Origin: Clostridiales bacterium
GTDB taxonomy: Bacteria; Bacillota; Clostridia; Saccharofermentanales; UBA5734
Assembly (NCBI GenBank): GCA_007135995.1
Contig: SLHU01000320.1
Coordinates: forward strand, 1-15,645
Direction of reading: 5' to 3'
DNA: 15,645 nt
Part shown: positions 2,198 through 15,645 of the stretch, one piece after another
Numbering within the stretch: position 1 is the stretch's first letter
Layout: each line of letters starts with the position of its first letter
Notes under the pieces: model-generated
Database searches by the model: none
Told to the model about the DNA's origin: nothing
The model's input: the letters and a program-made list of their open reading frames with translations, nothing else
Made by a program: the position numbers and the translations under genes

Positions 2198-2298
2198 GCT
2201 GCTTACTGTTTCACTGATCAGTCGCTGCTTACTGTTTCACTGATCAGTCGCTGCTTACTGTTTCACTGATCAGTCGCTGCTTACTGTTTCACTGATCC
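2195..2298. repeat. Four tandem copies of a 26-bp unit
   Basis: Units begin at 2195, 2221, 2247 and 2273. The first three are identical; the fourth differs only in its last base (C for A). Each junction forms the palindrome ACTGATCAGT. The first unit overlaps the terminator stem by three bases and the last includes the final 10 bases of the D-2-hydroxyacid dehydrogenase gene with its stop codon. There are no spacers, so this is not a CRISPR array. It is a probable variable-number tandem repeat. Confidence 0.95.
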
Positions 2299-3284: not shown

Positions 3285-3358
3285 TATTTACTGTCAAGGC
3301 ATAACATGATTGTGGCTATGCCTCGTATCCTCCTCAATTAATCTTGATTAATATACCT
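3285..3358 (-). promoter_or_regulatory. Leader of the dehydrogenase: palindrome, distant SD and hairpin
   Basis: In - strand order: a TATATT -10-like box (about 3350-3355), an AT-rich inverted repeat ATTAATCTTGATTAAT (3337-3352), the strong Shine-Dalgarno GAGGAGG (3335-3329), and a hairpin of AGGCATA/TATGCCT (3323-3317 with 3303-3297). Last comes a seven-codon ORF whose TAA overlaps the dehydrogenase ATG as TAATG. The palindrome could be an operator and the small ORF a leader peptide. Motifs are seen; roles are inferred. Confidence 0.35.
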
Positions 3359-3378
3359 GGTGCTGCGTTTTAACTTGG

Positions 3379-4230
3379 CTAGAAACTGGTGCTGTCCGGG
3401 TCGGTCGCTTTGCCGCAGCAGTCTGTCAGACCGGCCAGCATCTTGACATCTTCCTGAGAAAGTTCAAAATCAAACAGATCAATATTCTCACGAATTCTGG
3501 AAGCTGTTACCGATTTAGGTAAAGGCAGAAAGTCCATTTGAAGACTCCATTTCAAAGCAATCTGCGCGATTGTTTTCTTATATTTTTCTGACAGCGCCTT
3601 CATTTCCGGAACATCAAAAATCTCTCCTGTTCCCAGCGGACTGTAGGCTTCCAGAAGAATATTTTGTTTACGGCAGTAATCGACAACGTCTTGTTGTGTT
3701 TCGCCGGGACACAGCTTAATCTGATTCACCATGGGTTTAATGCGTGCAGTCTCCATCAAAGCATCAATATGATGCGGCAAAAAATTACTGATACCAATCG
3801 AGCGGATTTTGCCGGCCTCATAGAGCTCTTCAAATGCTTTCCACGTACCTGCGTTTGCCTGCTGCCAGTTGTCACGGTACTTTAAGGGATTTGGCCAGTG
3901 AATCAGATAAAGATCCAGATAGTCCATATCCAGGTTGTTCATGGTCTTTTCAAATGCAGCTAGAGCTTCCTTGTACCCATGATCCTGATTGCCAAGTTTA
4001 CTGGTGATAAAAACGGCTTCACGGGGAAGACCGCTCTCTTTTACCGCTCGCCCAACGCTTTTTTCGTTTCCATAACCTGCTGCTGTGTCAATATGAAGAT
4101 ACCCTGCATCAAGTGCAGTTTTTACCGCCTGAAAAGCAGTTTCACCTTCTTCAGCCTGCCAGGTTCCAAATCCCACGCAGGGAATTTCCACGTTGTTGTT
4201 CAGTGTGAATGTGTCTTTTGCTGATTTCAT
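3379..4230 (-). CDS. Aldo/keto reductase
   Basis: A 283-residue NADPH-dependent carbonyl reductase of the aldo/keto reductase superfamily (AKR5-like), a single TIM barrel in the cytoplasm. The catalytic tetrad is complete: D48 and Y53 in HIDTAAGYGNE, K78 in ITSKLG and H111 in YLIHWP. The NADP-binding end is seen in PLPKSVTASRIREN. The usual NQIEFHPG segment reads NQIKLCPG, a substitution in the substrate pocket region that may change specificity. ATG 4230 is preceded by AAAGGAGG at ideal spacing, so the start is secure. It is the first gene of a likely two-gene unit with the D-2-hydroxyacid dehydrogenase. Both reduce carbonyls, so detoxification of reactive aldehydes or keto acids is possible but unproven. 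Confidence 0.93.
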   Translation of the reverse strand: MKSAKDTFTLNNNVEIPCVGFGTWQAEEGETAFQAVKTALDAGYLHIDTAAGYGNEKSVGRAVKESGLPREAVFITSKLGNQDHGYKEALAAFEKTMNNLDMDYLDLYLIHWPNPLKYRDNWQQANAGTWKAFEELYEAGKIRSIGISNFLPHHIDALMETARIKPMVNQIKLCPGETQQDVVDYCRKQNILLEAYSPLGTGEIFDVPEMKALSEKYKKTIAQIALKWSLQMDFLPLPKSVTASRIRENIDLFDFELSQEDVKMLAGLTDCCGKATDPDSTSF

Positions 4231-4287
4231 GAGTAGGCCTCCTTTAAATCATCTAAATAAAACGTCATGTGTGCTGCTTGTTGATTG

Positions 4288-4330
4288 TTGCGTACTATTG
4301 TTTGAACGCAAACTATAACTAGGTATTATA
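4288..4330 (-). promoter_or_regulatory. Extended -10 promoter with operator-like repeat, aldo/keto reductase
   Basis: On the - strand TGTTATAAT (4333-4325) is a perfect extended -10 box with TGn; no matching -35 is seen, as is usual for this promoter type. Just downstream of the expected start lie the inverted repeats TTGCGT/ACGCAA (4288-4293, 4306-4311) and GTTTG/CAAAC (4300-4304, 4309-4313). Their position suits a repressor site. The leader would be about 88 bases. Confidence 0.5.
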
Positions 4331-4630
4331 ACACAGCCGGAAATTCTCGCGGATGCATGTGTTACCGACTTTAGTCTGCTGTAGATACTGCATTGTCCGG
4401 AAGCAGAGAAAATAACGCATTTTCAACCCTTCTCTCGTCTCATCGCGGCATGACCACACAGAACAGATAAGATCAGCCTTTCGCTCGTCATGCTTCAATT
4501 TTCGCATGAAGTGATCACACATGCGCAGAACCGTTATCACGCATGTGCAAAGTTCGTTGATCTCACCAATACTGAAACTGTCTGTATTCCTGCGGCTATG
4601 ATAAAATGGGTAAAGCACTGACGATCAGGT
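4331..4630. other. Intergenic stretch without a convincing gene
   Basis: About 300 bases between divergent units. A 99-residue - strand ORF (4319-4618) is Cys-rich, has no good ribosome binding site and runs across the aldo/keto reductase promoter, so it is not called. An 8-bp inverted repeat CACATGCG/CGCATGTG lies at 4518-4525 and 4540-4547. TATGAT at 4597-4602 resembles a + strand -10 but lacks a clear -35. Confidence 0.5.
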
Positions 4631-4696
4631 GCCTTGCACTGCATCTGGCGCCGCCTGGCAGTCTGGCGGCGCCAGATGAAAAACTCAGTGCAAGGC
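4631..4696. repeat. Large inverted repeat, 25-bp stem with one bulge
   Basis: An 11-base outer arm, GCCTTGCACTG (4631-4641), pairs perfectly with 4686-4696. A 14-base inner arm, CATCTGGCGCCGCC (4642-4655), pairs perfectly with 4665-4678. The loop is 9 bases and a 7-base bulge (AAAAACT, 4679-4685) interrupts one side. No T-run follows on either strand, so it is not a standard terminator. It may be a structured RNA, an mRNA element of the peptidase transcript or a small palindromic mobile remnant. Confidence 0.85.
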
Positions 4697-4793
4697 CTTG
4701 ACAGCGCCTGACACCCTCACCAATGCTGTTTGTCCGGCCTGGAACTGGACGTATTGAGGGATCGATCAGAATAAAAATACGAGGTTGATGCAT

Positions 4794-5990
4794 ATGGAAA
4801 TGAACCTGAACCGCGATAAGCTGGAGACTAGAATCCATCACTTGATCGGCAGTCTTAAAAAAAACGGCGGTTTTGACACCGCGCTGATCATTGATAAAGT
4901 CAATCAATACTATTATACAGGAACCATGCAAGATGGGGTTCTGGTGGTAAGAGCAGATGGAAGCATATATTATTATGTCAGAAAAAGTTATCAGCGGGCT
5001 GCAGATGAGTCGCCGCTGAATCAAATTTACAAAATGCGCAGCTATCGCGATATGCTAAGTGAGCTGCCGGATAATCTCGGATGTGTTTACCTTGAAGCGA
5101 ATGCGATGCCTGTCGCGATGATGCAGCGGTTTCAGCGTGTGTTTACGTTTGAGGACATGAAGCCGCTTGATCAGGTTATTTTGACGCAGCGTGCGGTTAA
5201 GGATGCGGATGAGCTTGGCCTGATCAGAGAATCGGGGCGGCAGCACCAGATAGTTATGAACGAGATCATTCCTTCATTATTGCAGGAAGGCATGTCAGAA
5301 ACAGACTTCCTGGCTGACTTATACCAGGCGATGGTCAAACTTGGATATCAGGGATTATCGCGGTTTGGCATGTTTCAAATGGAAATGGTGGTCGGCCAGA
5401 TGGGCTTTGGCGACCATTCGATGTATCCGACTAATTTTGACGGGCCGGGAGGCATGCGCGGCATGTCGCCGGCTGTGCCGATTATTGGCAGCCGGGAAAG
5501 ACGATTGAAAAAAGGCGATCTGGTTTTCGTGGATGTCGGATACGGTGTAGCGGGCTATCACAGTGATAAAACCCAGGTGTATTCTTTCGGATGCAAGCCC
5601 TCAAAAGAAGCTGCCGCAGCTCATACTGCCTGCAGGCAAGTGATGAAGCAGCTGACAGACAAGCTGACAGCGGGTGCTGTGCCGGAACAGATACATCATG
5701 AGGTTTCACATAACCTGCCGACTGGTCTGACCAGGGACTTCATGGGTGTTGGCGAGGAAGCGGTTCGTTTTTTTGGCCATGGCGTTGGCCTGCAGATTGA
5801 TGAAATGCCTGTTATTGCGGTCAAACAAAAGCAGCCGCTGCTGGAAAACATGGTTGTCGCGCTGGAACCAAAATGCGGGCTGCCCGGAGCGGGCATGGTT
5901 GGTGTGGAAGAAACTTTTCTCGTGCGTCAGGATAAACCGGAATGCCTCACAGGTGGTGACAGAGACATAATGGTTGTTGCAGGTGAATGA
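4794..5990 (+). CDS. M24 family metallopeptidase (Xaa-Pro aminopeptidase-like)
   Basis: A 398-residue 'pita-bread' metallopeptidase expected to remove N-terminal residues before proline or cleave Xaa-Pro dipeptides in the cytoplasm. Residues about 1-160 match the creatinase/prolidase N-terminal domain in layout. The C-terminal half carries all five metal ligands of the family: D247 and D258 (VDVGYG...YHSDKT), H329 (FFGHGVGLQIDEMP), E358 (ALEPK) and E372 (GVEET). Starts at TTG 4785 and ATG 4788 are also open; ATG 4794 is chosen because GAGG (4781-4784) is nine bases before it, against three for ATG 4788. A weak promoter, TTGTCC-16-TATTGA (4730-4757), could serve it. The YitT gene follows after 68 bases in the same direction, probably in one operon. 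The exact substrate cannot be told. Confidence 0.9.
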   Translation: MEMNLNRDKLETRIHHLIGSLKKNGGFDTALIIDKVNQYYYTGTMQDGVLVVRADGSIYYYVRKSYQRAADESPLNQIYKMRSYRDMLSELPDNLGCVYLEANAMPVAMMQRFQRVFTFEDMKPLDQVILTQRAVKDADELGLIRESGRQHQIVMNEIIPSLLQEGMSETDFLADLYQAMVKLGYQGLSRFGMFQMEMVVGQMGFGDHSMYPTNFDGPGGMRGMSPAVPIIGSRERRLKKGDLVFVDVGYGVAGYHSDKTQVYSFGCKPSKEAAAAHTACRQVMKQLTDKLTAGAVPEQIHHEVSHNLPTGLTRDFMGVGEEAVRFFGHGVGLQIDEMPVIAVKQKQPLLENMVVALEPKCGLPGAGMVGVEETFLVRQDKPECLTGGDRDIMVVAGE

Positions 5991-6058
5991 AGCTTATAAC
6001 AACGAATATGGTGACAGCATGCACATACTGAGACGTGCTGCAAAAGGGAGGATATGAA

Positions 6059-7012
6059 ATGATGTCTTCGCGCAGGCATGCGCTGATCAGCCAGTCAAAG
6101 TGGTATACGGTGATGCGTGATAGTCTGCTGCTTTTGGCAGGCGGCCTGAGCGCAGCTTTGGCGATTAATGTTTTTTATGTGCCGATCAAGCTGACGATGG
6201 GCGGCGTCTCCGGTATTGTATCGATTATTTATCAGCTGACCGGACGAGGGGAGTTTTTATCCTTCGGGCTCTTATTCATTATTATCAATATCCCGCTTCT
6301 CATCATGGGATATTTTATGATTGGCGTACAGTTTGTCAGCAAAAGTATGATTGGAACCCTTGCATACTCAGTGATTATTGACCTCACACAGCCAATGATG
6401 TCCGGCTGGTACACGGAGTATATTAATCGCCCCCTGGCGTCTGGCGGTGCTGATCCGCTGATTTACTGTGTATTTGGCGGCGTTCTGTACGGCATGGGCC
6501 TTGGAATGATTTTTCGCGGCGGATTTACAACTGGCGGCACCGATATTATCGCTATGCTGGTTCGCAAGAAAGTAAAGATGATCAGTATGGGACAGATTCT
6601 GCTGGTGATGGATGCTTTAATCGTTTTTGCTTCGGCAATCGCCTATCGTCATGGTTCTGAACCAAGCATTCTCCTGGCGATGTACTCATTTATTGCGATG
6701 TATCTGACCGCTAAAAGCATTGATATCCTGCTGGAAGGATTTGATTATTGCCGGACAGCCTATATAATTTCAGATAAAAGTGAAGAAATAGCAGCGCAGA
6801 TTATGACGAAAATGGAACGGGGGGTTACATCACTTCATGGAGAAGGGATGTATACGCGGAAAACCAAAGATATTCTGCTTTGTGTCTTATCGCGAAAACA
6901 AGTGCCGGATATTAAGCTTATTGTCGCGCAGATTGACCCGGACGCTTTTGTCATTGTCACCGAAGCCAGGGAAGTCCTGGGAGAAGGGTTCAGCGGCAGC
7001 CATACGCTGTAA
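6059..7012 (+). CDS. YitT family membrane protein (DUF161/DUF2179)
   Basis: A 317-residue integral membrane protein. Residues about 20-225 form five to six hydrophobic segments with glycine-rich turns such as TMGGVSGIVS and FRGGFTTGGTDIIA, typical of the YitT/DUF161 family. From about residue 230 comes a soluble alpha/beta DUF2179 domain (YIISDKSEEIAAQI...GVTSLHGEGMY), a small ligand-binding-type fold. The molecular function of the family is not established; transport is often assumed. Two ATGs stand together at 6059 and 6062, seven or ten bases after GGGAGG (6046-6051). A GTG at 6035 is in frame but lies before that site and is rejected. The 3' end overlaps the convergent kinase-like gene by 23 bases, and no terminator is evident between them. 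Confidence 0.9.
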   Translation: MMSSRRHALISQSKWYTVMRDSLLLLAGGLSAALAINVFYVPIKLTMGGVSGIVSIIYQLTGRGEFLSFGLLFIIINIPLLIMGYFMIGVQFVSKSMIGTLAYSVIIDLTQPMMSGWYTEYINRPLASGGADPLIYCVFGGVLYGMGLGMIFRGGFTTGGTDIIAMLVRKKVKMISMGQILLVMDALIVFASAIAYRHGSEPSILLAMYSFIAMYLTAKSIDILLEGFDYCRTAYIISDKSEEIAAQIMTKMERGVTSLHGEGMYTRKTKDILLCVLSRKQVPDIKLIVAQIDPDAFVIVTEAREVLGEGFSGSHTL

Positions 7013-7685
7013 GATCGAGTTGTTTCACGGCATGATGATGATGCTGTGTGCCGCGGCGCTCATCAATCACTTTCAGCTGATTGCTGACAGATGCTGCCAG
7101 GATGCTTTTTTTTAAGCAAAGCTGCTGGCAGAGCAGCGAAAACAGCAAGCGGGCTGCCTGACATTTTATGTTGGTCAACACGGGTTCGTATGTAAGAAGA
7201 AATGCGATCAGAGAACCTGCTTCGTCAGTTATATCACCTGTCCGGACAGACTCGAAATCTATTCGGTATACATGATGGTCTAGGTCGCTGAACACAAAAT
7301 TGCGCCAGTTATTATCACCCAGAATCAAATGATTATCTCTGAACAGCTGAGTCGTATAAATATCGCGAAGCAGTCGGACAATCGCTTGAAGCTTATCTTC
7401 AGGTACAGCCTGGCCGGCTGCTTCACATGCTTCAATCAGCTCACAAGCGGTTTTGCCTTGGATGAGACGCATATAAAGGGTGAGTGGCTCAATACGGGTA
7501 ATCTCTGGCACAGACAGATTCTGCTGACGCAGATAAGCCGCATATTGCTGTTCTGTCCGCCAGCTGGCTTCATCTTTGAATATTTTTACAATAGAAAGCT
7601 TTCCGCTTTGCGAATCACGAACCAGCATCACCTGGTTTTGCCTGCTCTTGTATGTTTTGACTAAATTATCATTAGGAGATGTCAT
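6990..7685 (-). CDS. Small kinase-like (protein kinase/aminoglycoside phosphotransferase fold) protein
   Basis: A 231-residue cytoplasmic protein with a reduced protein-kinase-like layout: a strand-3 lysine K34 (VKIFKD), a likely helix-C glutamate E45, a catalytic loop LGDNNWRNF with D124 and N129, and D143 in RIDFE replacing DFG. The His that normally precedes the catalytic Asp in aminoglycoside-type kinases is replaced. The last 50 residues are less conserved-looking and include four His in a row (215-218). The start overlaps the MobB-like gene by 14 bases, with AGGA upstream, so the two are translationally linked. It is last in the ECF operon. A phosphotransferase acting on the imported compound or on a partner is plausible. 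The substrate is unknown and the family assignment rests on motifs only. Confidence 0.65.
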   Translation of the reverse strand: MTSPNDNLVKTYKSRQNQVMLVRDSQSGKLSIVKIFKDEASWRTEQQYAAYLRQQNLSVPEITRIEPLTLYMRLIQGKTACELIEACEAAGQAVPEDKLQAIVRLLRDIYTTQLFRDNHLILGDNNWRNFVFSDLDHHVYRIDFESVRTGDITDEAGSLIAFLLTYEPVLTNIKCQAARLLFSLLCQQLCLKKSILAASVSNQLKVIDERRGTQHHHHAVKQLDLTAYGCR

Positions 7686-8433
7686 GGCGGTTCCTGATTT
7701 CGATGCGGATATCAGCTTGATTCTGATAGCCGCGAAGCTGGCTGATCATGCCGGTTGCTGTCGCTCTGATGATGTCCTGAACAAAAGGAACCAGGTCAAG
7801 CGGCTGGCCATTGATGAACACATCAACTGTCTGATGCTGCTGAACACAATCCGAAAGCTGTGACTTCCCCTTCAGAACACTGTCACAGAACGTCCTGCAG
7901 TCCATACCACAGGCAAAGCAGCATTCAGCGTCAACATCAGGAAGCAGGGGAAGTGCTTTTTCTTCAATCAGGTTAACCATACGATCAATGTCTGTTAGGG
8001 CATTGATTACTGGAACACTGTTATAGCTGTGCAGATCGGCTGAGACAACGCCGCTGACAGCGATCACACAAGGACTCCAGCGCTGATCAAGGTCGCTGAG
8101 GTTTGCTCCGGTCAGTATTTTAGCGATGTTTGCGTCTTCCACGCCTTCGCAGATAACAAAATCATGGCTGTAATGCCTGAGAATCGAAGACAAAGGCAGT
8201 TTTTCAGAATAAAGCACATCAGTTTCATAAAGGCCTCTGGCCGTCACCAGCTGTGAGCCGGCATGACGATGCCGGCTGGTGTTGGTTCCAGGCGGATCTA
8301 TTTGAAACTGCTCAAAATGAATTTCCTTAATTGAGCCAACGGAGCGGCCTCTTTTTCTCAGCTCTTTGATGATGGCCTCTGCCGTTGTTGTTTTACCAGT
8401 TTTAGTTGAGCCATAGACAGATAGTATCCGCAT
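7672..8433 (-). CDS. mobB: MobB-like P-loop protein with Cys cluster and C-terminal domain
   Basis: A 253-residue cytoplasmic protein. Its first 165 residues resemble MobB, the GTP-binding adapter of molybdopterin-guanine dinucleotide synthesis: P-loop GSTKTGKTT (8-16), a SIKEIHFEQFQID segment and FVICEGVED. A Cys cluster follows (C171, C172, C175, C179, C183, in CCFACGMDCRTFC), fit for an iron-sulfur centre or zinc. The last 50 residues (VFINGQPLDLVPFVQDIIR) resemble the tail of long MobB-like proteins I recall from archaea and clostridia. AGGAGG seven bases upstream fixes ATG 8433. It is 136 bases after ecfT and overlaps the kinase-like gene. No mobA or moa/mog gene is in the window, so classical cofactor maturation is not shown. 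It may instead handle the compound taken up by the ECF transporter. Confidence 0.8.
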   Translation of the reverse strand: MRILSVYGSTKTGKTTTAEAIIKELRKRGRSVGSIKEIHFEQFQIDPPGTNTSRHRHAGSQLVTARGLYETDVLYSEKLPLSSILRHYSHDFVICEGVEDANIAKILTGANLSDLDQRWSPCVIAVSGVVSADLHSYNSVPVINALTDIDRMVNLIEEKALPLLPDVDAECCFACGMDCRTFCDSVLKGKSQLSDCVQQHQTVDVFINGQPLDLVPFVQDIIRATATGMISQLRGYQNQADIRIEIRNRHDIS

Positions 8434-8475
8434 GCAGCGTCCTCCTGAGATTCATGAGCTTTATCATTCGCAGCC

Positions 8476-8522
8476 AGGGAAACCCGCTTGCCTTCAGGTG
8501 ACGGGAGAAGCGGTGCATCCCT
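8476..8522 (-). other. Structured spacer between ecfT and the MobB-like gene
   Basis: Within the 136-base gap a two-step stem can form: AGGGA/TCCCT outside (8476-8480, 8518-8522) and CCGCTT/AAGCGG inside (8484-8489, 8508-8513). The 18-base loop contains a CCT/AGG mini-pair. The Shine-Dalgarno of the MobB-like gene lies about 35 bases beyond in the direction of transcription. It could be a cis-acting RNA controlling the last two genes. No known riboswitch class was matched. Confidence 0.3.
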
Positions 8523-8569
8523 TTCTGGACATGATTTTTTGCTGACTGTCACACTTGATATATCACTGC

Positions 8570-9289
8570 CTACACGATCAATAAAACCATCAGGAAGATC
8601 AGTGATGAAGCGATGATCACCAGCCAGTCGGTATATCTTAATTTCAGCTTCATACGGCTGGTCTTCATAAAACCAGAGCGAAAGCCGCGAAGATCCAGGG
8701 CAATTGATAATGCCTGTGCTTTGTCAAGTGTCTGCATAATAACCGGAAAAAACAGATAAGTAAAGGTTTTCACTTTTTGCCGAACGGGTATTTTTTTTTT
8801 TTTTTTTTTTCGCAGCTGCAATGCAATAAGTGTGTGATTGACTTCACGTGCAAGCATGGGTATGAAGCTGATCGCGGTTATTACCATAAAGGCCAGTGTA
8901 TAGGGGAGTTTTAACTGGATCAGGCTTTGAATGGACGCCTGGCTGTTCGATGTTGCCAGTGCGGCACCGCACAAAAGGATGATCAGCATACGTAAAATGA
9001 AGCCCAGTCCGGTTTCAAGACCTGTCTCTGTGACAATCACCCGGTTTCCTGCAGTCAGCAGGGCTTCTCCACTTCGGTTAAAAAGAAGCTGAATGATAAA
9101 GATGCCAAGAAAGGTTGAGAGCACTATGCGCAGTTTAGAAAAAACTTTTGACAGATCAGCGCTAACCAGCATTGACAGTAAAAGCGCCAGAATTAAAAGG
9201 ATTAAAAGCTGAAGGGTTGAGTTCCTGATAATTGCGAGACTTGTCAGTAAGCAAACCGGCAGCATTTTGGCACGCGGATCAAGTTGCAC
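8570..9289 (-). CDS. ecfT: ECF transporter T component (EcfT/CbiQ family)
   Basis: A 239-residue membrane scaffold that links the two ATPases to the substrate-binding S component. It shows the family opening LDPRAK, about five to six hydrophobic segments and the second coupling motif ALDLRGFRSG (R201-G202). At the first coupling motif, where an Ala-x-x-Arg-Gly is expected, it reads ALQLR followed by six Lys (161-166), encoded by a run of 20 A. The chosen start is GTG 9289: AGGAGGT is five bases before it, and GTGCAACTTGA overlaps the stop of the upstream ATPase, indicating coupled translation. An ATG at 9316 and a start at 9364 are open but lack such a site. Changing the A-run by one base would introduce an early stop in either direction. 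Confidence 0.88.
   Translation of the reverse strand: MQLDPRAKMLPVCLLTSLAIIRNSTLQLLILLILALLLSMLVSADLSKVFSKLRIVLSTFLGIFIIQLLFNRSGEALLTAGNRVIVTETGLETGLGFILRMLIILLCGAALATSNSQASIQSLIQLKLPYTLAFMVITAISFIPMLAREVNHTLIALQLRKKKKKKIPVRQKVKTFTYLFFPVIMQTLDKAQALSIALDLRGFRSGFMKTSRMKLKLRYTDWLVIIASSLIFLMVLLIV
8791..8810. repeat. Homopolymer run of 20 T (20 A in the coding strand of ecfT)
   Basis: Twenty identical bases lie inside the coding region of ecfT, encoding part of an Arg codon, six Lys codons and the first base of an Ile codon. Such runs are prone to replication slippage, polymerase slippage and sequencing error. As given the frame is open. Confidence 0.97.
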
Positions 9290-9947
9290 AGGCCACCTCC
9301 TGTATCTTCTTGTCATCCAGGAAAAGCACAGATTGACAATACTGACTGACAAAAGGCTGATCATGACTGATCAGAAGCAAACCTTTCTGCATCCGTATCC
9401 GCTCTGTCATCAGATCACCAAGAACGCGGCGGCTTGCCAGGTCCAGACTGTTTGTCGGTTCATCCAGAATCAGGAAGTCAGGCTCATTCATCATCAGCGC
9501 TGCCAGTGCCAGTCTTTTTTGCTCGCCAGTGCTGAGCCGCAGCGGATTTTCATTTTTTCTCCGCGCAAGCTGAAACAAAGTCAGCAGTTTATCTGCTCGT
9601 TTCCTGATCTCAGCACTATCTGTCTGCTGCAAAATAAACGGGAACAGGAGTTCATCAAGAACAGTATCGGCAAAAAGCTGCTGGCGTGGATTTTGAAACA
9701 AATAGCCAATTTGCCTGCCAATTTGATGAAGAGGAATGTCTGATATGCTTTTGCCGTTTATTAAAACCTGTCCGTCAACAGGCTGAAGCAGCCCCATCAT
9801 CAGCAGCCCAAGCGTTGTTTTGCCGGCGCCATTGCTGCCGGTCAGCCCGGTGCAGATGTCCATTCGAAGATTCAATGACAGACGACGCAGCACAGGCTGC
9901 TGAATTTGAGATGGATAGGCAAATGTAACTTTTTGCAGTTGAATCAT
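9279..9947 (-). CDS. ecfA2: ECF transporter ATPase, second subunit
   Basis: A 222-residue cytoplasmic ABC ATPase that powers the ECF transporter as half of a heterodimer. All key motifs are canonical: Walker A GSNGAGKTT (37-45), Q-loop Q85 (YLFQNPRQQLF), signature LSTGEQKR (138-145), Walker B LILDEP with E163, D-loop SLD (169) and switch H195 (ISHD). An upstream in-frame start at 10046 would add 33 residues from inside the neighbouring gene. ATG 9947 is chosen because GAGGGG lies six bases before it and the protein then begins with the usual MIQLQKVTFAY. The Shine-Dalgarno overlaps the stop of the preceding ATPase gene, and the 3' end overlaps the ecfT start by 11 bases. Confidence 0.93.
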   Translation of the reverse strand: MIQLQKVTFAYPSQIQQPVLRRLSLNLRMDICTGLTGSNGAGKTTLGLLMMGLLQPVDGQVLINGKSISDIPLHQIGRQIGYLFQNPRQQLFADTVLDELLFPFILQQTDSAEIRKRADKLLTLFQLARRKNENPLRLSTGEQKRLALAALMMNEPDFLILDEPTNSLDLASRRVLGDLMTERIRMQKGLLLISHDQPFVSQYCQSVLFLDDKKIQEVACAT

Positions 9948-9957
9948 CAAAAACCCC

Positions 9958-10719
9958 TCATCTGGACGCGCCATAGTGATTAAGATGACCAGACTCAAGA
10001 TGCCATATATCATCTGCCAGATCATCAAAGCGGCCCTGATGGTCAATCAGCAGTATCGCAGTTGAAGCTTGCTTATGCCGCAGGATCATTCGCTTCACCT
10101 TGTCAATTCGATTATTGTCAATCATGGCCAGTGCTTCATCCAGAATCAGGAAGGGCCTTTTCATCAGAAGAAAAGCTGCGAACAAGATCAGCTGCTTTTC
10201 GCCGCCGGAGCAAAGCCTTGGGTTGCGAAATCGAAGTGATTCCAGGGAAAGCTCATGCATGATCTCATTGATCAGTGCGTTCATTCTTTGTACAGCGATA
10301 CCTTGATGTTCCAGACCAAAGGCCAGTTCGCTTTCTGTATCAGGTGTCAGAATCTGCAGATCGGGATCGGGAAATAAAGCACTGATATATTGGGCAATTT
10401 CTCGTCTCTCAGTCATTAACAGATTCATCCAAGGGTTTTCAGATGTTTTTGCTGTGCCCGAGTGTTTGCCGGCTGTTCGCTGATCAAAAAGCACAGGAGA
10501 GGTGCGGTCAAGGTTAAGATGCAACTGTCCAGAAGTACCTGATTCATATGCCTCAGGCAGCGCTCTGCAGATTATTTTTGCTAATGTGGACTTTCCGGCT
10601 CCGTTTTTGCCCTGAAGAACCACTGCCTGACCTTGATGCCAGGTAAAATTGACATCAGACAAGAGGGATGTCTGCATTCCTGGAAAGGTGAAGCGCAGTT
10701 CTGAAACACGGATATTCAT
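9958..10719 (-). CDS. ecfA1: ECF transporter ATPase, first subunit (divergent)
   Basis: A 253-residue ABC ATPase, partner of the downstream ATPase. Walker A GKNGAGKST (37-45) is intact. The ECF-type Q-loop stretch reads LFPDPDLQIL, with Pro117 where Gln is usual. The signature is CSGGEKQ (170-176) and Walker B with D-loop is LILDEALAMID (191-201), lacking the normal Pro-Thr after the catalytic Glu195. The switch His227 (LIDHQ) is kept. A stretch at about 61-110 (DRTSPVLFDQ... to MTERREIAQ) differs from typical EcfA. These changes suggest an asymmetric pair in which one catalytic site is weak (inference). The start ATG overlaps the stop of the upstream SUOX-fold gene as ATGA, with GAGGT nine bases before it. 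Confidence 0.88.
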   Translation of the reverse strand: MNIRVSELRFTFPGMQTSLLSDVNFTWHQGQAVVLQGKNGAGKSTLAKIICRALPEAYESGTSGQLHLNLDRTSPVLFDQRTAGKHSGTAKTSENPWMNLLMTERREIAQYISALFPDPDLQILTPDTESELAFGLEHQGIAVQRMNALINEIMHELSLESLRFRNPRLCSGGEKQLILFAAFLLMKRPFLILDEALAMIDNNRIDKVKRMILRHKQASTAILLIDHQGRFDDLADDIWHLESGHLNHYGASR

Positions 10720-11276
10720 TGCAGGCTGACCTCAACAACATATTTGCACCAGCTCTGGCTGAAAGCCTCTTCAAGAATCACCAGCATATAAGGACCATCA
10801 CCTTTTTGACTGCGATCCCTCAACGGAAGGCCATTTTCAATAAAAACCAGGAATACATGATCCTGCTCATAGATGCGCTGCAGGGGCAGGATTGTCTGAT
10901 AACCATCCACCGCTGAAATAATCGCCTGCTCAAAGTCATCTTCGGCTAAATGATAGGCTTTCAGTAAATCACGAAGCAGGATACCCTCATATACATGTTC
11001 GGAGACTTCTCCGGTACTGGTTCGCCTTGTGGCACTGATTGTCTGGGTCTGGAGCTGCATCAGGTCACTTCTTGAAACAACATAGTCCCTGCCGACGGTG
11101 TCTGGAGACGCTGCTCTAAGTGATATCTGCTGATCTTCATAATACGCAAGCGCGGATGTCCGCTGATCAGTCTGCAGATAATAAGTGACACCGATCAATG
11201 CACTCAACACCAGGCAGGACAAAAACACAATCAGATGAGATCGCTTAAAAGTTGTTTTAGCTTTTTTGTCTGTCAT
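10716..11276 (-). CDS. Membrane-anchored small SUOX/molybdopterin-fold protein
   Basis: A 186-residue protein with one N-terminal membrane segment (about 13-33) after a basic start, so the domain is probably extracytoplasmic. The domain resembles the oxidoreductase molybdopterin-binding (sulfite-oxidase, PF00174-like) fold in miniature: YEGILLRDLLKAY, then AIISAVDGYQTILPL, then VFLVFIENGLPL, GPYMLVI and WCKYVVEVSL. The catalytic Cys of sulfite oxidases is not seen at the expected place, so a binding rather than enzymatic role is likely. It shares this pattern with the lipoprotein two genes upstream, suggesting an old duplication. It overlaps the S-component gene and the next ATPase gene by four bases each, so it is an integral part of the transporter operon. 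The fold assignment is by pattern only. Confidence 0.6.
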   Translation of the reverse strand: MTDKKAKTTFKRSHLIVFLSCLVLSALIGVTYYLQTDQRTSALAYYEDQQISLRAASPDTVGRDYVVSRSDLMQLQTQTISATRRTSTGEVSEHVYEGILLRDLLKAYHLAEDDFEQAIISAVDGYQTILPLQRIYEQDHVFLVFIENGLPLRDRSQKGDGPYMLVILEEAFSQSWCKYVVEVSLQ

Positions 11277-11848
11277 ATGGTTTGATCTCCCTGTTCGTCA
11301 GTCCTTTTTTTGCTTTGCGCCTTGCCGATGCGGCAGGCCAGACGCCAGGCGATCAGACCCCCTAATCCGCCTGAAAGAGACGCGATGCTCAGGCTGAAAA
11401 GAAGCGGGATGGCTGGCAGTCTGAAAAAAAGCAGATTGGACAAATACGTGCCGCTTATATTGGCCGCCATTCCCGCAAGAAAGCAAGAGAGCAATGTCTG
11501 GCCTCTGGACCTGGTGATCAGCCAGATGAGCTCGATCGCCAAGCCCGGTACTGTATATGAAATTATGCTTGCGGCACCGTGGTTGCCAAACGATCCCGAT
11601 ATCATCACAATCAGTGCCTGAACCAGCGCTGTCAGAAAGGCAGCACCAAATTTGCCAGTCAGCGTTCCGGCCAGAACCAGCCACATCATATAAAATCCGC
11701 CTGCTACTGAACCGCCAGGTATGAGGAGCGGACCTGTGACCATATGTGTCAGAGGCACAATAACCGGCTTGATAGCCAATCCCAGGCCGGCCATCAGCGC
11801 GATCAGCATCAGATCATAAGTTGAATAAGATAGTCGCAGTGCTTTCAT
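11273..11848 (-). CDS. ECF transporter S component (substrate-binding membrane protein)
   Basis: A 191-residue hydrophobic protein with about six membrane segments and a Lys/Arg-rich cytoplasmic tail. The segment GPLLIPGGSVAGGFYMMWLVLA followed by GKFGAAFLTALVQALIVM and SGSFGNHG resembles YkoE-like S components, the family that includes hydroxymethylpyrimidine/thiamine-related uptake proteins. In ECF transporters this subunit decides the substrate. Its direct co-transcription with two ATPases and a T component marks a dedicated (group I-like) transporter. The substrate cannot be read from the sequence; the MobB-like and SUOX-fold neighbours point to a pterin or molybdopterin-type compound (inference). 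GAGG six bases upstream supports ATG 11848. Confidence 0.75.
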   Translation of the reverse strand: MKALRLSYSTYDLMLIALMAGLGLAIKPVIVPLTHMVTGPLLIPGGSVAGGFYMMWLVLAGTLTGKFGAAFLTALVQALIVMISGSFGNHGAASIISYTVPGLAIELIWLITRSRGQTLLSCFLAGMAANISGTYLSNLLFFRLPAIPLLFSLSIASLSGGLGGLIAWRLACRIGKAQSKKRTDEQGDQTI

Positions 11849-11868
11849 AAAAATCCTCTTGATTTCTG

Positions 11869-11914
11869 ACAGGACCTGCTGCCAGCCCGGATAATGACAG
11901 ACAGCAGATCCTGT
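11869..11914 (-). other. Intercistronic hairpin between lipoprotein and S-component genes
   Basis: In the - strand RNA, 11914-11902 pairs with 11881-11869 over 13 base pairs (one G-U), with a 20-base loop. No U-run follows, so it is not a full terminator. It could stabilise the upstream lipoprotein mRNA or set a lower level for the transporter genes. This 82-base gap is the widest in the first part of the operon. Confidence 0.5.
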
Positions 11915-11930
11915 AAGAGATGGCTGCAGT

Positions 11931-12398
11931 TTACTCTGTTACAATTATTTCAGCTACACCACGTACCCATACATTGCCGCCTTCACCATCAACCGCCAGC
12001 ATAGGCAAGTTATCATCATCCAGTACTTCGCCATTTTCTTCAAGAACGATGAGTGTTGTTTCCAGCACGGCCTGCTCATAGCTCACCTCAGCACTGAAGC
12101 CGTCGGCTGCCATGAAAGTCACTTGGCTGCCCGCATTCAGGTCAGCCAGTGACAAGATGTCAGCCAGCCTGTAACCTGAGCACGTAACCTGCTCTTCGCC
12201 GTCCCGGCCAAAGCGTGTCAGTGTTTCTTCGTGGTACTCAAGGTGGCTAAGATCGCTGCTAGTAAAACTAACCTGGTTAATCTGGATTGAAAAATCTGCA
12301 TCGGGCGCTTGAGCTGCTGCTTGTCCGCTGCAGGCATTCAGCAGCAGTGATAAGACTGCCAAAGAAATGATGAGTGTTCGTTTAAATCGTAAAGTCAT
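11931..12398 (-). CDS. Small lipoprotein with SUOX/molybdopterin-like fold
   Basis: A 155-residue secreted lipoprotein. The signal peptide ends in the lipobox L20-N-A-C23, so the mature protein would be lipid-anchored on the outside of the membrane. The domain reads YRLADILSLADL, then VTFMAADGFSAEVSYEQA, then LIVLEENGEVL, LPMLAVDG and VWVRGVAEIIV. This is the same order as in the membrane-anchored protein two genes downstream and like the core of the sulfite-oxidase molybdopterin fold (PF00174-like). A single Cys occurs in VTCSGYRL; whether it matches the cofactor-binding Cys is unclear. GGGAGG five bases before ATG 12398 is a strong ribosome binding site. As the first secure gene of the ECF operon it may capture or present the transported compound (inference). 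Confidence 0.65.
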   Translation of the reverse strand: MTLRFKRTLIISLAVLSLLLNACSGQAAAQAPDADFSIQINQVSFTSSDLSHLEYHEETLTRFGRDGEEQVTCSGYRLADILSLADLNAGSQVTFMAADGFSAEVSYEQAVLETTLIVLEENGEVLDDDNLPMLAVDGEGGNVWVRGVAEIIVTE

Positions 12399-12607
12399 GT
12401 AATCCTCCCTGGATCATCAAATTGAATTGACGCTGTCGGCTCTGCCGCACGGCGCATTAACTGTTTTTCTTGTCTGACAGGTATCAAATTGAATCTTTCG
12501 GATATGTGCCAAGTGCCCGGCGTACAAAAAAAGCATACGGAACCACAGGAAACGTACACTTCTTCAAGCGTGATCTGCTGGTTCTTCTCAAACACGGAAA
12601 GCATCAT
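12395..12607 (-). CDS. Possible small Cys-containing protein, unknown
   Basis: A 70-residue ORF that I do not recognise. It contains VSCGSVCFFC (C-x3-C-x2-C), a spacing often seen in metal or iron-sulfur sites. Its stop overlaps the lipoprotein start as ATGA, and its start overlaps the stop of another small ORF upstream in the same way. Against it: a weak ribosome binding site and a C-terminal half that looks like random sequence. It may simply be the 5' leader of the operon. Confidence 0.3.
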   Translation of the reverse strand: MMLSVFEKNQQITLEEVYVSCGSVCFFCTPGTWHISERFNLIPVRQEKQLMRRAAEPTASIQFDDPGRIT

Positions 12608-12705
12608 AATTTCTTATCATACTCATCGGCCATTTCGTCATAGGCATCGCCCTTAGACAAAAAAGCTCGAACCTCATATTCAATTCCAGTCGCGCGACTG
12701 CGCAT
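12604..12705 (-). CDS. Possible 33-residue leader ORF
   Basis: An ORF with an ordinary-looking, charged, helix-prone product ending in GDAYDEMADEYDKKL. Its stop overlaps the next ORF start by four bases. No Shine-Dalgarno is seen, and the best promoter here would start transcription at or just after its ATG. If real, it would need another promoter or an internal start. It may also be the remnant of a longer gene. Confidence 0.2.
   Translation of the reverse strand: MRSRATGIEYEVRAFLSKGDAYDEMADEYDKKL
12687..12700. promoter_or_regulatory. Perfect 14-bp palindrome, candidate operator
   Basis: CAGTCGCGCGACTG is an exact palindrome placed at the predicted transcription start of the - strand ECF operon. 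GC-rich symmetric sites at this position commonly bind dimeric repressors. The regulator is unknown and no regulator gene is in the window. Confidence 0.55.
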
Positions 12706-12707
12706 TA

Positions 12708-12736
12708 ACAATAAAATACCAGATGCCTGTTGTCAA
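12708..12736 (-). promoter_or_regulatory. Promoter of the ECF/MobB operon
   Basis: On the - strand a perfect -35 TTGACA (12736-12731) is followed after 17 bases by TATTGT (12713-12708), four of six matching the -10 consensus. Transcription would begin near 12701, at the edge of the 14-bp palindrome. The leader to the lipoprotein start would be about 300 bases. Confidence 0.55.
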
Positions 12737-12764
12737 GCCGATTTGCTTGCTGTTAAAGGATTTT

Positions 12765-12820
12765 CAGCAAATTGCTGTAAAAATTAGCAGTTGAACCTCT
12801 AAAAAATGTAAACGTTTACG
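12765..12820. promoter_or_regulatory. Divergent control region: two palindromes including a cre/LacI-type site
   Basis: CAGCAAATTGCTG (12765-12777) is an exact inverted repeat with one central base. TGTAAACGTTTACG (12807-12820) contains the perfect palindrome GTAAACGTTTAC and matches 13 of 14 positions of the Bacillota catabolite-response (cre) consensus. It could bind CcpA or another LacI-family regulator and act on the - strand operon, on the + strand URO-D gene, or on both. Confidence 0.5.
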
Positions 12821-12946
12821 GGCGGCTTTCTTTTGCTGCGGCCATTTTGTTTTCTTCAGCAGCAAGGATACAGATGATTCATAAGTAATATGAGCGGATC
12901 ATCACGGATCAGGCAAGATCTGCATAAATATCAGCAAAAAAAGCTT

Positions 12947-12976
12947 ATGACATGCGAGCATCAGCACTTGTATGAT
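12947..12976 (+). promoter_or_regulatory. Promoter of the URO-D family gene
   Basis: ATGACA (12947-12952) and TATGAT (12971-12976) are 18 bases apart; each matches five of six consensus bases. Transcription would start near 12983, inside the 5' extension of the open reading frame. This supports the start at 13068/13071 over the longer 12972 version. Confidence 0.55.
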
Positions 12977-13070
12977 AAAATCAGTGTTGCAGAGAAACAT
13001 GAGGGCACAGTCAGGCGGTCGGGTCCTGATACACTGGTCTGGCGGCCTCGTTCGTGAAAGAAGGTTTATG

Positions 13071-14210
13071 ATGATACTACTAGATGAGCTGCCGCTTGAT
13101 ATTGAAACATTCTGGCAGGACGATGCACGTGCCCATGAAGATAATTGCTTTTCAAAAAAAGCGCCGCAGATCGCGCTGGGCATCCGCATGAGCGATGAGT
13201 GTGTCTTTGCCGAGCTGGATGAGCCGGGTGATCCCTGGGGACATACACCCATAGAACGCAGACTTGAGCTTAACCGCCGCTATAATGACAAAGCAGAAAA
13301 AATTGTGGGACGAAGGCTGTTAAATGAATCGGCTGACCCGCACGACGCGGCTTTTCCTGAGGTGAAGCGCATCGGGGAAGTGTTTGGCGGAACGTATCAT
13401 TTTGGCCAGAAAACAGGCGAGTGGCTGTCCGGAACTGCTGCAAAACCCGCCGAACTGGCGTCTTTGCTTGATCAAGTTGAGCGGCTTGATCTTGAAGACT
13501 TTATGCTGCCATCAAACTGGCATGCGGAGAAAAAAAGGATCTTTGACTGTTACGGGAAAAAACCGCATCAGCTGCGGCATGTTCGCGGGCCGGTCACATT
13601 GGCTGCATCTGTTTATGGTGTGGAAAATCTGATTTACCTGTATTACGATGCACCTGAGCTTTTCAGCCGCTTTTCTGAAACAATCACCCGGGTGATTGTT
13701 GAAATGAGCCGGATTATGGATCGGGAGGCCGGGTTTTCGGAAGGTGAGGCACCATCTGGGTTTTCTTTTGCTGATGATGACTGCTGTCTGCTGACACCGG
13801 AGATGTACGAGGTATTTGGCTATCCTGTTTTAAAAACAGTCTTTGAATGCTTCGCCTCTGATGTAAACGACAAGCGCTTCCAGCATTCAGATTCTGATAT
13901 GGCGCATCTGCTGCCGTTGCTTGGAAAACTGAATCTGACCGGCTGCAACTTTGGTCCGACAGTCCTTATTGACCAGATACGCGCCTATATGCCGCGCACC
14001 AGAATCGACGGCTGTCTGGCACCGTTTACGTTCATGGATAATGATCCGCAGGCAATCGCGGCTGAAGTCAGAAGGGACTTTCAGATGATTCAGCAGCTGG
14101 GAACACGCGGCCTTAACCTATCAACAGCGGGATCCATTAATAATGGCAGCCGGCTGGAAAGCATGCGTCTGATAATGGCGCTGATCCAGCATGAAGGCAG
14201 ATATATGTAA
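13071..14210 (+). CDS. Uroporphyrinogen decarboxylase (URO-D) superfamily protein
   Basis: A 379-residue cytoplasmic protein of the URO-D/methyltransferase superfamily (TIM barrel). Recognised from the C-terminal half: FQHSDSDMAHLL (H272-S-D), LTGCNFGP, MPRTRIDGCL and LNLSTAGSI, in the order found in the 'uroporphyrinogen decarboxylase family' proteins common in anaerobes. These often act with corrinoid methyl-transfer systems rather than in haem synthesis. The N-terminal motif of true HemE (arginine-rich RVP/RQAGR) is absent, so haem synthesis is unlikely. No His-x-Cys zinc site of MtaA type is seen. Two ATGs (13068, 13071) follow AAAGAAGG; the second has the better six-base spacing. A longer version from 12972 begins upstream of the predicted transcription start. 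No corrinoid protein or methyltransferase neighbours are in the window, so the substrate is open. Confidence 0.75.
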   Translation: MILLDELPLDIETFWQDDARAHEDNCFSKKAPQIALGIRMSDECVFAELDEPGDPWGHTPIERRLELNRRYNDKAEKIVGRRLLNESADPHDAAFPEVKRIGEVFGGTYHFGQKTGEWLSGTAAKPAELASLLDQVERLDLEDFMLPSNWHAEKKRIFDCYGKKPHQLRHVRGPVTLAASVYGVENLIYLYYDAPELFSRFSETITRVIVEMSRIMDREAGFSEGEAPSGFSFADDDCCLLTPEMYEVFGYPVLKTVFECFASDVNDKRFQHSDSDMAHLLPLLGKLNLTGCNFGPTVLIDQIRAYMPRTRIDGCLAPFTFMDNDPQAIAAEVRRDFQMIQQLGTRGLNLSTAGSINNGSRLESMRLIMALIQHEGRYM

Positions 14211-14352
14211 AACTGGCCAAAGATAACTCTTTTTCTGACAAGTAAAAAATGGTTTAATAGAGCATGAAACAATTCAAACAGTGCTGCCGTTTTCGTCTTG
14301 ATCGATGTATAGACGTTCAGACATGAAAACGCTTGATTGACTGGAGGTTCAC

Positions 14353-15099
14353 ATGGAAGGCATTATCTATAGTTTTCTCGCAGGTGTCTCAACCGTTCTG
14401 GGTGTATTTGTCCTGATGATATTTGGTACACCGTCAAAAAAGGTTCTGGCTGCGTTACTGGGTTTTGCCGGCGGTATTATGACCGCCATATCAGTTTTTG
14501 AACTGATGCCGGAGGCCGTTGAGCTAGGTTCTGTATTCAGCGCTGTCATCGGCTTTCTGCTGGGCGCCGGCATGATGTTCGCGCTCGATAAAGTGATGCC
14601 GCATTCGCATATGTCGGAAAGTGACGATATGGTTGTTGAAAATCCGGAGAAGCTGACATTTGTCAGCAATCCGATTGCCCGTACCGGCTATCTGATTTTG
14701 TTTGGCATTGCCCTGCATAATCTGCCGGAAGGGCTCGCGATCGGCGCCGGACTGGAAGCCAGTCCGGAACTGGGGATGCTGATCGCGGTTGCGATCGCGC
14801 TTCACAATATCCCAGAAGGGCTGGCTATTGCGGGCCCGCTGAAAGCAGGCGGACTGAGCAGCATCAAAATCATCCTCTTTACGCTTGCCGCCGGACTGAT
14901 GACACCGATTGGCGCAGCTATCGGGCTCTTGTTTTTCTCCATCTCACCGATCTTTGTCGGCGGGTCACTGGCATTCGCGGCTGGCGCGATGATCTACATT
15001 GTCAATGATGAGCTCATCCCTCAGTCAAACGCCATGGATAGTCATCTGGCAAATGCCGGACTCATCGCGGGACTGTTGCTTGGATTCGCCCTGCTTTGA
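14353..15099 (+). CDS. ZIP family divalent metal transporter (GufA-like)
   Basis: A 248-residue inner-membrane protein of the Zrt/Irt-like family, which moves zinc or other divalent metals. Both metal-site helices are complete: ALHNLPEGLAIG (H122, N123, E126) and ALHNIPEGLAIAG (H151, N152, E155). About eight membrane segments are evident and a short acidic/His loop (PHSHMSESDD, 83-92) lies between segments 3 and 4, where ZIP proteins carry metal-sensing loops. GGAGG five bases upstream fixes ATG 14353. It lies 142 bases after the URO-D gene, with weak promoter-like sequence in between, and 22 bases before the protease gene, with which it may be co-transcribed. The metal cannot be told from sequence. 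Confidence 0.93.
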   Translation: MEGIIYSFLAGVSTVLGVFVLMIFGTPSKKVLAALLGFAGGIMTAISVFELMPEAVELGSVFSAVIGFLLGAGMMFALDKVMPHSHMSESDDMVVENPEKLTFVSNPIARTGYLILFGIALHNLPEGLAIGAGLEASPELGMLIAVAIALHNIPEGLAIAGPLKAGGLSSIKIILFTLAAGLMTPIGAAIGLLFFSISPIFVGGSLAFAAGAMIYIVNDELIPQSNAMDSHLANAGLIAGLLLGFALL

Positions 15100-15121
15100 T
15101 TATTTAATGTAAGGAAAACAA

Positions 15122-15645
15122 ATGATTTATCTCAACGAAGATCAGTCTGACCAGGGTGTGGATAATCAGACATCAGCAAGCCTGGATGCTTTGCAGGAAA
15201 AGCTGCGTCATAAGAAAAAAACCGTTGTCAGGCTGATGGCCCTGGTAACCGCGGTCGCCTTTCTGATTTTGTCTTTCAGCGGTGCGCTCAGGTTGTTTGG
15301 CTTGCCGCCTCTGGAGTTTCTGCTTGAATCGCGCCAGCTATCACAGGATTCTGACATTGCCCTTCTTAAACAGTCCGTTTTATCAGTCAGTGCCAATGGC
15401 AGCAGGGGGACGGGTTTTGTCCTGGCAGATCAGCAGCTGGCTGTGACCAATTTTCACATCACTGAACATGCAGGACAGCTGGAGATGAGAGATGTCAATG
15501 GCGGGCAGTCACTTCATCTGGAATGGCAGGAAACGCCGGAACTGGATCTGGCCATTATCAAGATCGACAGTCACGATGTGCGAGGACTTGAGCTTGAAAC
15601 AGAAATTCTGCCTGATCTTGGCGAGACCGTTCTGATGATCGGCAA
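15122..15645 (+). CDS. Membrane-anchored trypsin-like (HtrA/DegP-type) serine protease, 5' part
   Basis: The first 174 codons of a gene cut by the window end. A 35-residue charged cytoplasmic head is followed by a membrane segment (about 36-56), then the start of a chymotrypsin-fold protease domain facing outward: SVLSVSANGSRGTGFVL, catalytic His112 in VTNFHI, and Asp142 in ELDLAII. The His-Asp gap of 30 residues equals that of DegP. The serine motif and any PDZ domain would lie beyond the window. Expected to degrade or sense misfolded envelope proteins. AAGG seven bases before ATG 15122 supports the start. Confidence 0.85.
   Translation, partial: MIYLNEDQSDQGVDNQTSASLDALQEKLRHKKKTVVRLMALVTAVAFLILSFSGALRLFGLPPLEFLLESRQLSQDSDIALLKQSVLSVSANGSRGTGFVLADQQLAVTNFHITEHAGQLEMRDVNGGQSLHLEWQETPELDLAIIKIDSHDVRGLELETEILPDLGETVLMIG

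Follow-up and report, generated by a model that had tools for sequence, protein, structure and literature searches.

Can a bacterium take up the pyranopterin cofactor of its tungsten and molybdenum enzymes from outside, and if so by means of which proteins? The question is raised by a stretch of 15,645 nucleotides from a Clostridiales bacterium (GenBank assembly GCA_007135995.1, contig SLHU01000320.1, positions 1 to 15,645; hereafter the window), in which eight minus-strand genes at 6990-12398 encode a complete dedicated energy-coupling factor (ECF) transporter, consisting of an S component, two ATPases and a T component, together with two small proteins of the SUOX family, a MobB-like protein with a cysteine cluster and a kinase-like protein. 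We consider it probable, at roughly three chances in four, that this operon serves the uptake or salvage of a pyranopterin cofactor of tungsten or molybdenum enzymes, be it molybdopterin, the molybdenum cofactor (Moco), the tungsten cofactor (Tuco) or a close derivative. What leads to this reading is the likely repression by the cofactor, surface proteins of a pterin-binding type, a phosphodiesterase, an S component of the organic-ligand type, MobB, the kinase, and enzyme-bearing genomes without detectable synthesis genes; the substrate, the direction of transport and the step taken by each protein are what we infer within it. A sequence-only reading of the window had proposed the salvage of a pterin or molybdopterin by surface binders followed by cytoplasmic processing, and the riboswitch, the conserved gene set, the co-occurrence with enzymes and the carriers in which synthesis genes were not detected all favour that proposal. 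The components are of known kinds; their combination and the proposed substrate appear to be new.

The prevailing view is that cells make their own Moco. As stated in the consulted parts of a paper on dietary Moco in C. elegans, uptake beyond that animal has yet to be examined or observed, and the paper raises the question how Moco crosses membranes (PMC9793310). A modelling paper on E. coli uses Moco uptake, in the part consulted, as an example of an unrealistic solution (PMC3423039), and 'molybdenum cofactor transporters' are named once, for fungal genes and without detail, in the excerpts of another (PMC13315312). No ECF or other bacterial importer for a molybdenum or tungsten cofactor was found in the open-licence PMC literature, subscription papers and preprints lying outside that search.

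A Moco/Tuco riboswitch heads the operon

The operon is headed by a Moco/Tuco riboswitch (RF01055; gathering score 36, E 1.3e-14), the sole Rfam family detected at gathering scores across the whole window. It had gone unmentioned in the sequence-only reading and sits between a promoter-like site and the first gene (Table 1). Since 1.3 sites as good as the promoter-like one are expected by chance in the stretch scanned, these hexamers are suggestive at most. The P3 positions are deleted in the alignment of the window aptamer, which places it in the P3-less (Tuco) subclass. An Rfam scan of the loci of 15 relatives found the aptamer upstream of the operon in 14 (all except L065), and P3 is likewise missing in 15 further aptamers from these 14 loci, a second copy in L019 included.

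According to the consulted parts of Regulski et al. 2008 (PMC2408646), 58 of 176 Moco RNAs lack P3, and 17 of the 19 organisms with P3-less forms have, in addition, genes pointing to a metabolism of the tungsten cofactor, a link that is a correlation only. The window aptamer, far above threshold and of the class tied there to tungsten users, resembles that regulon. It differs in the genes controlled, which in those parts of the paper are molybdate transporters, biosynthesis genes and Moco-using proteins, with no mention of an importer for an organic cofactor (PMC2408646).

A covariance model built from 16 aptamers was run over the loci of 80 relatives and located a riboswitch upstream of the S gene in 50, or in 47 of the 66 where more than 2 kb of upstream sequence is available. 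Two or more copies per locus, some near one another, are present in L014, L023, L043 and L052. A pattern scan found no terminator 3' of the window aptamer, and the local hairpin folds only a little better than shuffled sequences (z -1.35; 17 of 200 shuffles as good).

Genes of the operon

Open reading frames (ORFs) of the window were typed by Pfam and NCBIfam profile searches. These bear out what had been read from the letters: eight minus-strand genes, several with ATGA or longer overlaps (S/SUOX at 11273-11276, SUOX/ATPase at 10716-10719, and 14 nt shared by the MobB and kinase genes), and an ECF module whose S, T and two ATPase components are encoded together. The assignment of the two small, presumably extracytoplasmic proteins to the SUOX type holds at the level of PF00174. 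The MobB-like P-loop protein exceeds the PF03205 cut-off of 26.6 bits, comes slightly below that of TIGR00176 (73 against 76.2 bits) and well below those of the PRK14494 models; its C-terminal cluster CCxxCxxxC...C is invariant in 29 aligned sequences, the window's among them. The supposed reduced kinase is indeed a small kinase-like protein, with both its matches below cut-off (APH 12.8 against 23.2 bits; Bud32 in NCBIfam 1.5e-5, far below). It keeps the D..WRNF...DFE motif, a loose form of which occurs in 32 of 39 relatives tested.

Table 1. Features of the operon and its upstream region in the window (all on the minus strand)
Feature	Position	Strand	Evidence
Promoter-like hexamers TTGACA-17-TATTGT, upstream of the riboswitch	12708..12736	-	10/12 matches
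Moco/Tuco riboswitch aptamer RF01055, class without P3 stem	12565..12684	-	67.1 bits
Lipoprotein-like, one minimal SUOX-family domain; proposed surface pterin/cofactor binder	11931..12398	-	PF00174 24.5 bits, cut-off 24
ECF S (substrate-binding) component	11273..11848	-	PF09819 60.9 bits; closest solved fold YkoE
Membrane-anchored minimal SUOX-family protein	10716..11276	-	PF00174 27.7 bits
ECF ATPase 1	9958..10719	-	ABC_tran
ECF ATPase 2	9279..9974	-	ABC_tran; start uncertain, 9947 or 9974 by eye; ORF open to 10046
ECF T component, CbiQ family	8570..9364	-	CbiQ 84 bits
MobB-like P-loop protein with C-terminal Cys cluster	7672..8433	-	MobB 59 bits
Small kinase-like protein with D..WRNF...DFE motif	6990..7685	-	sub-threshold APH, weak Bud32

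Conservation of the gene set

A profile made from an alignment of 40 S components was used to search the contigs of species genomes. This search yielded 269 S-encoding stretches, of which the best 80 were analysed by counting genes within 8 kb of S; many of the contigs end early. An ATPase gene lies near S in 74 of the 80 loci, SUOX in 69, T in 67, MobB in 53, a phosphodiesterase in 45, the kinase in 41 and an FMN-binding protein in 28. The gene set, whose lack of conservation elsewhere had been named as a fact against the salvage proposal, is retained even where its order has been reshuffled (L122, L123), and its recurrence in dozens of distant genomes argues that the arrangement is more than chance. 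Further cofactor genes adjoin S operons, namely MoeA (L036), a MobA-like gene (L118), and enzymes of the aldehyde:ferredoxin-oxidoreductase (AOR) and PF00384 types. Comparison of the S protein with plasmids and viral contigs gave no matches.

Cofactor enzymes and synthesis genes in carriers

One check proposed from the sequence was whether the host lacks moaA, moaC and moeA while encoding enzymes that need the cofactor. In the window's own genome (G000; 2.19 Mb in 432 contigs) two AOR-type proteins are encoded and neither MoaA, MoaC nor MoeA was detected, at a completeness of 59%, too low for a firm conclusion on loss. A broader set consists of 48 S-bearing genomes, that of the window plus 47 others to which 48 of the 80 loci led, in which MoaC is present in 32, MoeA in 32 and MoaA in 30. 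All 16 MoaC-negative genomes lack MoaA as well, and 14 of them also MoeA. AOR and PF00384 proteins were searched for in 25 of the 48 (the 16 without MoaC, two without MoeA only and seven with MoaC) and were found in 21 and 20 respectively, each MoaC-negative genome having at least one. Fourteen of the 48 thus carry no detectable MoaA, MoaC or MoeA and keep an AOR or PF00384 match, and in 13 of these 14 a riboswitch lies upstream of S, the exception being G043 (L065).

One of these cases is a metagenome-assembled genome of 98% completeness and 1% contamination (G008, locus L010, identical to G096 by contig coordinates), with seven AOR and two PF00384 matches and none for MoaA, MoaC or MoeA. Another is an Anaerosalibacter genome not labelled as metagenome-assembled (G033), where the three are likewise missing and a PF00384 enzyme stands directly behind the T gene. 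PF00384 includes proteins possibly devoid of molybdenum, such as matches of about 1190 residues; the genomes with PF00384 alone (G024, G033, G047, G398) have formate-dehydrogenase-like matches at E 1e-81 or better. MoaE (PF02391) was tried as a marker and proved poor, with weak scores in 21 of 67 genomes and absence from many MoaC-positive ones too; among the 16 MoaC-negative S-bearing genomes its sole match, a weak one, is in G008. In G009 (L011), G040 (L061) and G094 MoaC was found, with MoaA in the first two, and MoeA was not.

The S component tracks tungsten and molybdenum enzymes. In a sample of 393 genomes from the class, each with a completeness of 90% or more except the window's own, the S profile matched at E up to 1e-25 in 19: G000, 16 strong carriers (at least 193 bits) and two weak ones (about 110 bits). 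AOR occurs in 53 of the 393 and PF00384 in 70, and all 16 strong carriers have an enzyme (PF01314 in 15, PF00384 in G398). Either enzyme is present in 85 of the 392 genomes other than the window's, and all 16 strong carriers fall inside these 85 (hypergeometric p 7e-12; seven families, kinship uncorrected). Searches for MoaC and MoeA covered 80 genomes of this sample, seven others being left out, and found each protein in 71; the MoaC-negative ones are G000, G096, G200, G236, G257, G324, G404, G145 and G294.

These genomes bear directly on a different account, in which the ECF transporter imports a metal oxyanion, tungstate or molybdate, and the riboswitch controls metal supply as for other metal transporters. 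Some group I ECF systems transport metals, and FecCD/BtuF-type ATP-binding cassette (ABC) sets, a kind to which molybdate importers belong, lie inside the L010 operon (Pfam) and, from the look of the sequences, in L014. Moco RNAs are moreover known upstream of molybdate transporter genes, in the parts consulted of PMC2408646. Against this account, the 14 of 48 carriers that have enzymes and no detectable MoaA, MoaC or MoeA could not use the bare metal; the S component falls in the YkoE group, whose ligands are organic; and it is hard to see what the SUOX proteins, phosphodiesterase and kinase would contribute to the uptake of an oxyanion. We consider metal import quite unlikely. For uptake of the pyranopterin, the absence of MoeA from the 14 genomes suggests that at least some carriers may import an already metallated cofactor.

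The S component

The S component of the window belongs to PF09819, and its nearest structural relative is YkoE, the S component for thiamine, at about 20% identity. That it might belong to a characterised family with a fixed substrate had been named as the fact that would undo the salvage proposal, and here the outcome is divided: the closest fold is that of a thiamine binder, and the low identity, with no thiamine pyrophosphate (TPP) riboswitch at gathering score in the window or along the full length of the 15 relatives' loci scanned (no search was aimed at thiamine genes), means that kinship with YkoE does not establish a fixed thiamine role. For reference, the thiamine pocket of YkoE involves W49, E77, Q95, D131 and Y46, in the part consulted of PMC5037267.

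An ordinary YkoE-family transporter for thiamine or its pyrimidine, placed under a cofactor riboswitch by happenstance, would agree with this fold. A sequence profile of the S clade matched no solved structure up to E 10, YkoE included; no TPP riboswitch accompanies the loci scanned; and both the class of riboswitch and the genes conserved alongside S have to do with the molybdenum or tungsten cofactor. This explanation strikes us as very improbable. Compared with the YkoEDC system itself, a group I ECF transporter for thiamine, the window system is set apart by the distance of its S component, by the Moco/Tuco riboswitch at the operon and by the additional SUOX surface proteins, MobB and kinase.

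SUOX-family surface proteins and phosphodiesterase

Inspection by eye suggests a lipoprotein-like signal (LLNAC) in the first SUOX protein of the window and a single N-terminal membrane segment in the second. The lipoprotein and anchored sets are related to one another (profile comparison, 99.9%). With the profile of the lipoprotein set, matches were obtained to sulfite dehydrogenases (8e-10) and to two pterin-binding entries, 7kom (1.4e-5) and 7kos (1.5e-5); the profile of the anchored set matches these two weakly (7kom 0.0012, 7kos 0.036), and a pair of viral VP30 chains, which are unrelated, falls between them at 0.016-0.02. No conserved cysteine of the kind that would ligate molybdenum was found across 58 anchored and 39 upstream SUOX proteins, the ligand position not having been mapped onto a SUOX enzyme. 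Twenty-one of the 58 anchored proteins are free of cysteine and the others mostly have a single one near the C-terminus, as does the window's; among the upstream proteins 22 of 39 have none beyond residue 60 and the other 17 have it at scattered positions; in the window lipoprotein it is residue 75, where the aligned proteins mostly have Trp. Family membership together with the lack of a conserved cysteine favours binding over catalysis for these small proteins, as far as can be judged from the sequences.

PruR (7KOS) offers a close comparison, being a SUOX-fold pterin binder without the molybdenum-ligand cysteine that binds tetrahydromonapterin and similar small pterins, in the parts consulted of PMC13259868. 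The likeness lies in small exported SUOX-family proteins lacking a conserved ligand cysteine, with a clear profile match for the lipoprotein set and a weak one for the anchored set. Window-type proteins differ in that they sit in transporter operons rather than beside a regulator of cyclic di-GMP, are anchored by lipid, membrane or S-layer, and are often part of larger proteins or fused to a phosphodiesterase. Two S-layer-anchored proteins with SUOX-family matches lie upstream of the operon in L059 (651-1799 and 1840-5859), the larger with beta-propeller-type repeats in addition.

Two further explanations meet at these proteins. The substrate could be another pterin, such as monapterin, neopterin or a breakdown product of the cofactor, used as a precursor, a signal or a redox carrier, its uptake being tied to cofactor demand by the riboswitch. 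Known cofactor synthesis begins at GTP and not at a free pterin, so that a simple pterin would not rescue the loss of MoaA and MoaC; and the adjoining genes for MobB, MoeA (L036), a MobA-like protein (L118), AOR and PF00384 enzymes concern the finished pyranopterin. The pterin specificity of PruR, whose entry 7kos and the similar 7kom are what the SUOX profiles match, speaks in its favour (PMC13259868, in part). On balance we regard a simple pterin as unlikely. Alternatively, the operon might build or feed an extracellular redox system of FMN-binding, NosR-like and SUOX proteins, its ECF part supplying flavin or another precursor. FMN_bind proteins near S in 28 of the 80 loci would fit, as would the ApbE protein and the Fer4/FMN_bind membrane proteins of individual loci (L018, L059). 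Such genes are absent from the window, and 52 of the 80 loci, some of them on contigs that end early, showed none near S; the one FMN riboswitch in the 15 scanned loci, in L009, lies about 3.5 kb upstream of its Moco riboswitch; and without a conserved cysteine the SUOX proteins are not expected to be molybdenum enzymes. We hold this redox role to be very unlikely.

The surface phosphodiesterase of the relatives, of the nucleotide pyrophosphatase/phosphodiesterase type, has the two-metal site of alkaline-phosphatase type. Its N-terminus appears SUOX-like, a likeness that rests on profile comparison (96.9% against the lipoprotein set and 93.3% against the anchored set) since the aligned rows covered residues 285-502 only.

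A possible uptake route

For high-affinity uptake and salvage of the pyranopterin cofactor the following order of events can be envisaged. When the cofactor is scarce, the P3-less riboswitch would permit expression of the operon, by the OFF-switch logic reported for an E. coli Moco RNA and carried over here. The surface SUOX proteins, as lipoprotein and membrane-anchored forms and, in relatives, S-layer-anchored ones, would bind the pterin cofactor and hand it inward; in many relatives the phosphodiesterase with its SUOX-like N-terminus may first cleave the molybdopterin guanine or cytosine dinucleotide (MGD/MCD) or other phosphodiesters. The S component would receive the ligand and the module of two ATPases and T import it. 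In the cytoplasm the kinase might restore a phosphate and the MobB/Cys-cluster protein hold or nucleotidylate the cofactor, which could then be passed to enzymes such as the two AOR-type proteins of the same genome.

Several observations weigh against such a role. The missing Moa and MoeA proteins of a genome only 59% complete prove little, and a completeness figure is not given for most of the other 47 S-bearing genomes. Loss of MoaC is not enriched among strong S carriers of the class sample (2 of 16, against 6 of 63 others; p 0.66), so that the operon tracks cofactor use rather than loss of synthesis, which counts against a purely auxotrophic role; in the 14 of 16 strong carriers with MoaC, salvage would be supplementary. 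Three genomes with AOR and without MoaC and MoeA (G257, G324, G404) have no S at the cut-off of 1e-25. A riboswitch is missing upstream in 19 of the 66 loci with more than 2 kb of upstream sequence, and in five loci (L010, L014, L027, L059 and L072) the upstream riboswitch is separated from S by 6-9.5 kb and several genes. The nearest fold of the S component is a thiamine binder, the window operon has no phosphodiesterase, and the truncated site of PruR is likely too small to hold Moco (PMC13259868, in part).

Other candidate importers

Both MoaC and MoeA are absent from seven genomes of at least 90% completeness, and in four of the seven a Moco riboswitch precedes the genes of a candidate importer. 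The window-type operon is the one present in G096 and G200, with an AOR gene in G200 about 1.1 kb past the kinase gene on the opposite strand. In G145 (100% complete; no MoaC, MoeA or MoaE matches, MoaA not tested) a P3-bearing Moco riboswitch (87.6 bits) directly precedes a divergent S gene, 32% identical to that of the window; the cassette (L118:9893-11647) comprises S, a protein that is weakly SUOX-like and has no Pfam match, and a third that resembles MobA at a score below the NCBIfam cut-off; it adjoins a formate-dehydrogenase-like enzyme, and has no matches for the ATPase and T genes within the surrounding 18 kb. In G294 (99% complete; no MoaC, MoeA or MoaE matches, no S at the cut-off, MoaA not tested) a P3-bearing Moco riboswitch (88.4 bits) stands before genes for a FecCD permease, an ABC ATPase, a binding protein, NTPase_1 and a MobA-like protein (L133:13075-17397), with a molybdopterin oxidoreductase upstream. 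Judged by its gene content, the FecCD-type set of L133 is a candidate for a different cofactor importer. One AOR-bearing contig each was examined for G257, G324 and G404, and neither an S-type operon nor a FecCD-type importer was present there.

It is conceivable, and we advance it tentatively as somewhat less than an even chance, that anaerobes share the molybdenum/tungsten pyranopterin cofactor as a 'vitamin': certain bacteria with several tungsten enzymes would have given up synthesis entirely, the step of metal insertion too, and would depend on metallated cofactor (Tuco or Moco) released by others, taken in by at least two unrelated riboswitch-controlled importers, namely ECF with a SUOX relay and the FecCD/BtuF-type ABC set with a MobA-like protein (L133).

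In the window genome an AOR gene lies in a same-strand run with a ThiF/MoeB-like and a 91-residue protein (L128; G000:C361:1-5627), and about 200 bp further a second ECF transporter (MptD/Trep_Strep-type S, T and ATPase) is encoded near this tungsten enzyme.

Relation to known systems

In the Isd/NEAT heme relay and in BtuCDF cobalamin uptake, repeated small surface binding modules pass a scarce cofactor to a membrane importer. The window system would be an analogous relay, with other folds, another ligand and an ECF importer. It shares with dietary Moco in C. elegans the use of a cofactor made by another organism; that case concerns an animal, with the route of transport given as unknown in the parts consulted, whereas the window offers a candidate for a dedicated bacterial importer (PMC9793310).

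The operon provides a concrete bacterial candidate with which the membrane crossing of Moco becomes testable, among 269 S-encoding stretches in the species genomes scanned. If the reading as cofactor uptake is true, the molybdenum/tungsten cofactor joins exchanged cofactors such as B12, and a compound that cells were long thought always to make for themselves can be acquired from outside. It would also give small SUOX-fold proteins a role outside cyclic di-GMP signalling and account for tungsten enzymes in genomes where no synthesis genes can be detected.

Flanking genes

Divergent from the operon, the window encodes a URO-D family protein (PF01208) at 12972-14210. The flanks (74-7012 and 14353-15099) hold genes for an alpha-amylase/CBM48 protein, a 2-hydroxyacid dehydrogenase, an aldo/keto reductase, an M24 peptidase, a YitT/DUF2179 protein and a ZIP transporter.

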